64,000 nt of DNA. Source: Urbifossiella limnaea (GTDB lineage: Bacteria > Planctomycetota > Planctomycetia > Gemmatales > Gemmataceae). A program made the position numbers and the translations under genes. Location: NCBI RefSeq assembly GCF_007747215.1, contig NZ_CP036273.1:434001-498000 (forward strand). The letters are read 5' to 3'. Shown piece by piece: positions 6,211-50,895 of this stretch. Numbering within the stretch: position 1 is the first letter of the stretch; every line of letters starts with the position of its first letter. The notes beneath the pieces were generated by a model, which saw only the letters and a list, made by a program, of their open reading frames with translations, made no database searches and had not been told where the DNA came from.

Positions 6211-6281
6211 GTCCCCGGGGTGTGGCGGAGGCACGCGACTCTACGAAAGTCGTAGGCCTGGTTCGACTCCAGGCGGGGATA
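6211..6281 (+). tRNA. tRNA-Arg(ACG)-like gene, non-canonical core
   Basis: It folds as a full cloverleaf. Acceptor GTCCCCG/CGGGGAT has one G-T pair. D stem GTGT/GCAC encloses a seven-base loop. The anticodon stem CGACT/AGTCG is perfect, with loop CTACGAA giving anticodon ACG (Arg). The variable region has four bases, and T stem CCTGG/CCAGG encloses TTCGACT. The discriminator is A and CCA is not encoded, as for the tRNA-Gly at 55449. Unusual points are G rather than T at position 8 and a very short D loop. A second tRNA-like gene follows after two bases. No clear promoter is visible upstream. Confidence 0.7.
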
Positions 6282-6283
6282 CT

Positions 6284-6352
6284 GACGCCGACCGACGGGT
6301 CGGCCGGCCGGCTGCAACCCGGCCCGCGTGGGTTCGACTCCCGCCGGCGTCT
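6284..6352 (+). tRNA. tRNA-Cys(GCA)-like gene, reduced D arm
   Basis: Acceptor GACGCCG/CGGCGTC is perfect. Anticodon stem GCCGG/CCGGC is perfect, with loop CTGCAAC giving anticodon GCA (Cys). The T stem GTGGG/CCCGC (one G-T pair) encloses TTCGACT. The discriminator T is the conserved identity base of tRNA-Cys. The D region is abnormal: the best stem is CCGA/TCGG with a four-base loop and a three-base linker. It is 69 bases long with no encoded CCA. It starts two bases after the Arg-like gene, so the two are probably processed from one transcript. Confidence 0.68.
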
Positions 6353-6387
6353 CTACGAGCCGGGGGCCGTGGGACGTGGATCGAAAG

Positions 6388-50250: not shown

Positions 50251-50436
50251 CTACTTGGCCTCGTCTTCCTTCTCCTCGATCGCGTCGGCCGCCGCGACGG
50301 CGTCGATCACGTCCTTCGCCTCCTGCGGCCCGCCGGCCAGCCGGGCGAGGCGCCGGACGGCGGCGACGAGGGCGTGGTGGAGGTCGTAGTCCGCCGCCGC
50401 CTTACTGAGCTTCGCCGGGTCGTACTTTCGTGCCAC
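50251..50436 (-). CDS. Small Lys/Ala-rich protein, unknown
   Basis: 61 residues from GTG 50436, supported by a GGAGGC ribosome site five bases upstream and a TATAAA box at 50477-50472. It is a single helical, charged protein (YDPAKLSKAAADYDLHHALVAAVRRL) with an acidic C-terminus (IEEKEDEAK) and no TM segment. Not recognised. The supporting signals and lack of competing frame make it likely real. Confidence 0.7.
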   Translation of the reverse strand: MARKYDPAKLSKAAADYDLHHALVAAVRRLARLAGGPQEAKDVIDAVAAADAIEEKEDEAK

Positions 50437-50477: not shown

Positions 50478-50498
50478 CGTGGGGCGGCAACTGGGAAG

Positions 50499-50571
50499 CG
50501 CGGGGGGTGGGTGTCGCACCCACGGCTCCGGGGGATTAGCCCGGCGAGTTGACTATCTACTCCACCCCCGC
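50499..50571 (-). tRNA. tRNA-like locus with unusual loops (formal anticodon AAT)
   Basis: All four stems are perfect: acceptor GCGGGGG/CCCCCGC, D stem GAGT/ACTC, anticodon stem CCGGG/CCCGG and T stem GTGGG/CCCAC. T8 is present and the variable region has four bases. The loops are abnormal. The anticodon loop CTAATCC puts AAT at 34-36 with C at position 37, the T loop TGCGACA lacks the TTC sequence, and the D loop AGATAGTCA lacks the GG pair. The discriminator is G and CCA is not encoded. A working elongator tRNA is doubtful; a tRNA mimic or a decayed tRNA fits better. No promoter is evident. Confidence 0.55.
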
Positions 50572-50592: not shown

Positions 50593-50895
50593 TCAGCGCT
50601 TGCTACCGTCCGGCGGGCCGGCCGGGCTCGTGACATTCGCCGGCGGCCCCGAGGTGTCGAACCGGTTGAGGCCGAAGTAGCTCCACTTCTGAACGACCAC
50701 GTTGCTCACCACCGCCCCGGTCGGCGGGGCCGGGGCCTGCTGCCAGGGCAGGAGAAGCCCCCGGTAGTGGAACACGGACGTGCCGTCGGGGCCGAGGTAG
50801 TCCCACGATTCCCACCGGCAAGCCAGCCCCACGACGAGGACGAACGGCACGACGAGAGCGGCGAAGAACCGTCGGTTGCCCGGGCTGTTGCTCAA
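50593..50895 (-). CDS. Small membrane-anchored protein, unknown
   Basis: 100 residues from TTG 50895 with AGGA five bases upstream. An N-terminal TM helix (FFAALVVPFVLVVGLAC) is followed by an exported part with three aromatic-rich short segments (WESWDYLGPDG, FHYRGLLLPW, QKWSYFGLNRF). Not recognised. The TTG start and short length reduce certainty. Confidence 0.6.
   Translation of the reverse strand: MSNSPGNRRFFAALVVPFVLVVGLACRWESWDYLGPDGTSVFHYRGLLLPWQQAPAPPTGAVVSNVVVQKWSYFGLNRFDTSGPPANVTSPAGPPDGSKR

Follow-up and report, generated by a model that had tools for sequence, protein, structure and literature searches.

The window, that is, the whole stretch of 64,000 nucleotides analysed here, contains on its minus strand (50498-50571) a gene that ARAGORN called as tRNA-Ile(aat). 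The features of this unit and its surroundings are as follows:

50497..50571, minus strand: initiator-tRNA-like unit, the whole conserved block of 75 nt, ending G73-C74-T75 (ARAGORN; sharp-ended repeat block in its own genome and in relatives; covariance model, 101.5 bits)
50533..50539, minus strand: anticodon loop CTAATCC, with AAT at 50535-50537 (CTAATCC in 21/24 copies; exact reverse complement of GGATTAG in the 790 loop of its own 16S rRNA)
50512..50518, minus strand: T loop TGCGACA, in which position 55 is G (G55 in 24/24 copies)
50550..50558, minus strand: D loop AGATAGTCA, holding A18-G19 (both in 24/24 copies)
50593..50895, minus strand: ORF of 100 aa, whose end is 21 nt before the RNA unit (no match to a Pfam or NCBIfam family)
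50251..50436, minus strand: ORF of 61 aa downstream of the RNA unit (likewise without a Pfam or NCBIfam family)

All stems of the minus-strand cloverleaf are paired (acceptor, 7 bp; D, 4 bp; anticodon, 5 bp; T, 5 bp). An earlier note on this DNA, which gave no strand, had described four fully paired stems with T8, the T loop TGCGACA and an anticodon loop with AAT and C37; all of these were found on the minus strand, where the anticodon loop reads CTAATCC. The minimum free energy of the fold was -38.8 kcal/mol (z = -3.0), and an equally good fold was reached by 2 of 200 shuffled sequences. Infernal scoring, also suggested in that note, gave no report of the unit by the Rfam tRNA model (RF00005), even at E ≤ 10 over the 701 bases searched, and only 17.8 bits for RF00233. 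The unit did not reach the RF00005 gathering score of 29 bits and was not among the 69 Rfam tRNA hits over the whole genome. The surrounding genes had been described as small or unknown, which holds for both adjoining ORFs. A diverged DNA copy of the 100-aa ORF is located elsewhere in the genome (G000:C1:1793158), without the RNA unit. Elsewhere in the window, two adjacent short tRNA-like genes (6211-6353, plus strand; ARAGORN Arg-acg and Cys-gca) have normal T arms and unusual D arms and gave no Rfam report at the gathering score, and an Acido-Lenti-1 RNA (RF01687; 23172-23217, plus strand) scored 52.5 bits, above its gathering score.

The same genome contains a second copy of the unit with 97% identity (G000:C1:2349514). 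The RNA block is repeated with sharp ends, and the flanks are mostly unrelated between copies. BLAST detected the block in 21 of the 95 same-family genomes, two of them through marginal partial matches. A covariance model built from 24 copies was then run on these 95 genomes and returned 24 full copies (79.8-104.9 bits) in 19 genomes and 6 of 39 genera; because the model was trained on the same 24 copies, their scores are high by construction, and the result is the gap to the next matches, which scored at most 62.5 bits and were other tRNAs, with initiators the best among them. A further, 25th copy in G015 (G015:C3) scored 71.7 bits. Outside the family, nothing exceeded 66.1 bits in 392 genomes of the phylum, the own genome apart; of these, 19 fetched genomes carry ordinary initiators. 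A pattern scan of GTDB genomes yielded 16 stretches, with titles that refer to Gemmataceae genera or to metagenome-assembled genomes (MAGs), including planctomycete MAGs; two of these genomes are labelled Isosphaera and Singulisphaera. Among the carriers identified by name are Limnoglobus roseus PX52, Zavarzinella formosa DSM 19928 and Gemmata sp. IIL30. Since 76 of the 95 family genomes lack the RNA, it is not essential to the family.

The earlier note had proposed a comparison of stems with loops in relatives, and its reading would have fallen if related genomes had contained no homologue. Homologues are present in 19 of the 95 family genomes, their stems covary, and the altered loops are nearly invariant. 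Over the 22 distinct sequences of the 24 homologues, 99.3% of the cells pair, as against at most 61.4% for slid control structures. Two-sided changes were observed in 7 of 21 pairs (15 cells) and were not reached in any of 500 shuffles, a count that is no probability because the copies are related by descent. The cloverleaf is thus real, and it defines a conserved structured RNA family within one planctomycete family.

Other origins of the unit were considered. A chance palindrome, which the earlier note had already doubted, is ruled out by the 24 covarying homologues. An isolated pseudogene is ruled out for the family as a whole, though some copies are broken (L022, L035, L039 and L041). The partial matches suggest decay of some copies; two of them (L036 and L037) match only the 3' half and may be due to chance. 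A phage or plasmid RNA was rejected, as no match was found in phage or plasmid records.

The 24 copies were compared position by position. The anticodon loop is CTAATCC in 21 of them and contains CAT in none; C37 and C38 each occur in 23, and the CAU anticodon followed by A37 and A38, a feature of initiators, does not occur. The 1-72 pair is closed (G1-C72 in 23 copies, G-T in one), so that the unpaired or weak 1x72 position of initiators is not found. The discriminator position 73 varies (G in 17 copies, A in 7), and the variable loop comprises 4 nt. The tertiary partners 8-14, 15-48 and 19-56 are invariant, and 54-58 is nearly so; T8, A14, G15, C48, C56 and A58 are as constant as A18, G19 and G55.

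The earlier note had stated that the D loop lacks GG. This loop is indeed abnormal, and what it contains is A18-G19 in place of G18-G19, in every copy. The normal contact at this site is G18-Psi55 (PMC4810234). CAT-bearing initiator-like tRNAs with G55 were found in 4 of the 95 genomes at five places, one of them cut by a contig end (G065:C1:2501344 and 6367050, G071:C6:172505, G083:C824:2777, G107:C214:5), with A18 wherever this position is readable; the four readable ones, two of which are identical in sequence, also carry A18-G19. By eye, the T55 initiators of the listed set all carry GG. Since A18 accompanies G55 and GG accompanies T55, the 18-55 contact changes as a pair. The missing GG and the wrong T loop are therefore a single coordinated swap, with A-G instead of G-U at the 18-55 elbow. 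Of the proposed regulatory tRNA mimic with conserved stems and changed loops, the mimic part is supported and the regulatory part is putative; the D- and T-loop oddities are a compensating A18-G55 change and not a loss of structure. The A18-G55 elbow is a natural experiment, and a clean one, on a tRNA tertiary contact that is almost universal. The extra CAT/G55 initiator-like tRNAs could be altered initiators of a second class.

In a tree of 84 tRNAs, which has 75 columns only and in which many forks are open, the 21 mimics included formed one group (support 100/97). The enclosing branch (96/94) holds 46 rows, namely the 21 mimics, all 20 initiators, three G55 initiators and two elongators. 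Constraining mimics and initiators to one clade cost 0.17 log units (p-AU 0.508), so that this arrangement was not rejected. Marks of initiator tRNA are C1-A72 and A11-U24 (PMC8887418), together with a stem of three G:C pairs that is needed for initiation and that helps the final maturation of the 16S rRNA ends, with a mutant that causes cold sensitivity (PMC10486304). The mimics carry the G:C stem (29-31/39-41), with G30, G31 and C40 in 24 of 24 copies and C39 in 23 (one gap); the 29:41 pair is G:C in 21 and A:U in 3, and A29:U41 also occurs in most true initiators of the family. They also carry the purine 11 : pyrimidine 24 pair (A11 in 24/24, T24 in 23/24). Among the 65 fetched ARAGORN tRNAs of the own genome, the D stem GAG occurs in the mimic copy and the initiator only; six others have a purine at this place, five of them in an odd array where the numbering is possibly off. 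The 3' end CT is common to the mimics and the initiators of the family, and in G015 one copy is located ~190 nt downstream of the true initiator on the same strand. With the covariance model, the initiator of the own genome scored 47.2 bits, below tRNA-Lys (50.5 bits) and another tRNA (47.6 bits). The RNA family is, on this sequence comparison, a derivative of initiator tRNA, a point that the earlier note did not have; it kept the stem marks of initiators for the 30S P site and lost CAU and the C1xA72 mismatch. In initiator tRNA, the 1x72 mismatch is the feature read by the formylase.

Beside the ordinary set, odd tRNAs are densely arrayed (G000:C1:1566637-1568373, L078); their T arms are similar (GGTTCGA-CTCC), and they look like a second, divergent tRNA set. 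In G015:C8 (L120), an ORF that resembles an endolysin is found amid small ORFs, ~2.4 kb further downstream than the copy and the true initiator; as judged by eye only, it could indicate a prophage beside the initiator gene.

The RNA family is linked to two genes. Eight of the 25 copies are located within 100 nt downstream of infA, which encodes IF-1, seven of them at distances of 6-10 nt and the eighth at 94 nt; in G068, G079 and G080, the copy follows the only infA detected in the genome. These are not eight independent events, because the same upstream genes are found at L117, L121 and L126, and upstream genes are likewise shared between two of the three places in G001. Decayed mimics were not found behind infA at 30 infA loci of genomes without the RNA (best score, 10.9 bits). 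At least two copies of infA are present in 10 of the 19 RNA-bearing genomes and in 5 of the 76 others, kinship and genome size being ignored. Nine of the 25 copies are beside an ORF of 31-34 aa that is rich in lysine, M(G/A)KGNNSQ.KEKKKPKK..., for which no Pfam or NCBIfam family was found; three copies are upstream of it. Both neighbours occur in G081, in the order infA, RNA, ORF. The small ORF was detected in 18 of the 19 RNA-bearing genomes versus 11 of the 76 others, again ignoring kinship and genome size and with a profile made from copies near the RNA, which is biased towards RNA-bearing relatives. Within genus g17 the corresponding numbers are 10 of 10 versus 2 of 9, and within genus g1 4 of 5 versus 0 of 1. 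The small ORF also adjoins an infA in G070.

Lysine-rich ORFs of this kind (~27-38 aa, M-A/G-KGNNSQ...; L222, L228, L232 and others) belong to no family and have an SD-like purine stretch upstream in many copies. The KEKKKPKK form tracks the RNA. The KDKKKAK form occurs in genomes without any full RNA copy detected; G071 and G031, each with such a copy, have it as well.

Signals for expression were sought upstream of 17 copies that are not behind infA; the 7 infA-adjacent and 4 degenerate copies were left out. A -10-like TANNNT starts exactly at -12 in 5 of the 17 (TAGAAT, TACAAT, TAGACT twice, TACACT), against a background of 724 in 46,968 positions (1.5%); the binomial value of 5e-6 is too good, as the position was picked after looking. 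With a -10 box at -12, transcription would start at G1. Strong hairpins follow copies L025-L027. The window copy has no recognisable promoter or terminator and, located 21 nt behind the 100-aa ORF, may be co-transcribed with it.

GGATTAG, found once in the 16S gene of the same genome (context ...AACGGGATTAGATACCCC...), is exactly complementary to the anticodon loop CTAATCC. G785, G786 and G791 lie in this 790 loop, which has a role in subunit association and initiation (PMC4613259). The initiator loop CTCATAA pairs with the 790 loop at four of seven positions, and three changes make this seven of seven; two of the three variant mimic loops keep seven pairs when G:U is counted. Because the match was noticed after the fact and some perfect complement in the own 16S rRNA exists for 4 of the 64 CTNATNN loops, this 7-nt match is treated as a lead and is suggestive only.

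We consider a non-translating paralogue of initiator tRNA, that is, an uncharged mimic acting on the 30S subunit, the best explanation, and give it about even weight. The RNA would be co-transcribed with infA, or start at G1 by means of its own -10 box, and would presumably not be charged with fMet. It would bind the 30S subunit through its initiator-type anticodon stem. There it would serve as a decoy or checkpoint RNA, tuning initiation or the final stages of 30S maturation, and its anticodon loop might have the 16S rRNA 790 loop as a partner. The RNA family may thus be an unrecognised regulator of ribosomes. A much more specific version is improbable: a natural ribosome-checkpoint RNA, uncharged, whose stem would be read by the 30S P site and whose loop would pair with 16S positions 785-791, so that immature or idle 30S subunits are kept from 50S and fMet-tRNA, and which would be produced together with IF-1 and a small basic partner protein. 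If the binding to 30S is true, the RNA would offer a natural means of studying how ribosome maturation and subunit joining are licensed by initiator tRNA.

The several copies per genome, in unrelated places, could also reflect a dispersed tRNA-derived repeat, spread by integrative elements or small duplications and without a cellular role. tRNA genes are common integration sites, the upstream flank shared by the second copy in G070 is only ~24 nt long, the G071 copy is 82 nt from the end of a phage-integrase ORF, and one copy is on an IMG/VR contig. However, compensatory changes that keep the fold, together with fixed loops, are unexpected for a passive repeat, the recurrent placement beside infA and one small ORF speaks against it, and phage and plasmid records gave no match; we regard this explanation as unlikely, though worth keeping in mind. 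The same placement would suit an element within the 3' UTR of infA and of the small ORF, or a signal for their processing, in place of a free RNA, since 11 of the 25 copies are 5-10 nt behind the stop codon of one or the other. This is very improbable in view of the five copies with their own -10-like box and start at G1 and the three copies upstream of the small ORF; such an element would also have no need for a fixed anticodon-loop sequence.

The complete cloverleaf and its conserved tertiary partners would be expected of a charged decoding tRNA with an odd anticodon, either an alternative initiator or an isoleucine tRNA reading AUU, with which AAU would pair, in line with the ARAGORN label Ile. 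In decoding tRNAs, position 37 is a purine almost without exception, and elongator tRNA-Ile has pyrimidine 11 : purine 24, purine 37 and A73, whereas the mimics have A11:T24, C37 in 23 of 24 copies and A73 in 7 of 24. The almost constant C38, the G/A discriminator and the closed 1-72 pair also argue against decoding, and the own genome has two tRNA-Ile(gat) and four tRNA-Met(cat) among the fetched tRNAs, so that we regard a decoding role as rather improbable. By analogy with the staphylococcal cell-wall tRNA-Gly, the RNA could be a non-ribosomal aminoacyl carrier, with the loops of its tRNA-like body changed to avoid the ribosome; its altered elbow could make the normal contacts in translation weaker. 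No synthetase determinant was recognised, though, no transferase gene recurs among the listed neighbours (by eye), and the retained initiator-specific stem features point to the 30S P site, which makes such a carrier hardly probable.

A search of the literature returned no report of an initiator-derived bacterial RNA that is neither charged nor decoding, and we know of no described bacterial RNA that derives from the initiator, keeps the P-site marks and has given up charging and decoding. The cloverleaf-like match to the tymovirus tRNA-like 3' UTR (RF00233) is weak, its gathering score of 40 being far above the score of the window unit, and the known RF00233 elements are viral. With initiator tRNA-fMet, a member of RF00005, the RNA family shares descent, G30:C40, G31:C39, A11:U24, T8, A14, G15-C48, G19-C56 and the 3' CT trailer. 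It differs from this tRNA in AAU instead of CAU, C37 and C38, A18-G55, the closed G1-C72 pair and the 4-nt variable loop, and from RF00005 members in scoring below their threshold. Non-translating tRNA paralogues include the staphylococcal cell-wall tRNA-Gly and tRNA-Other of Bacillus cereus, and the RNA family resembles them as a chromosomal tRNA relative with altered loops. In contrast to these paralogues, which are derived from elongator tRNAs or are charged, it is, by its sequence, derived from the initiator and has kept the P-site marks.
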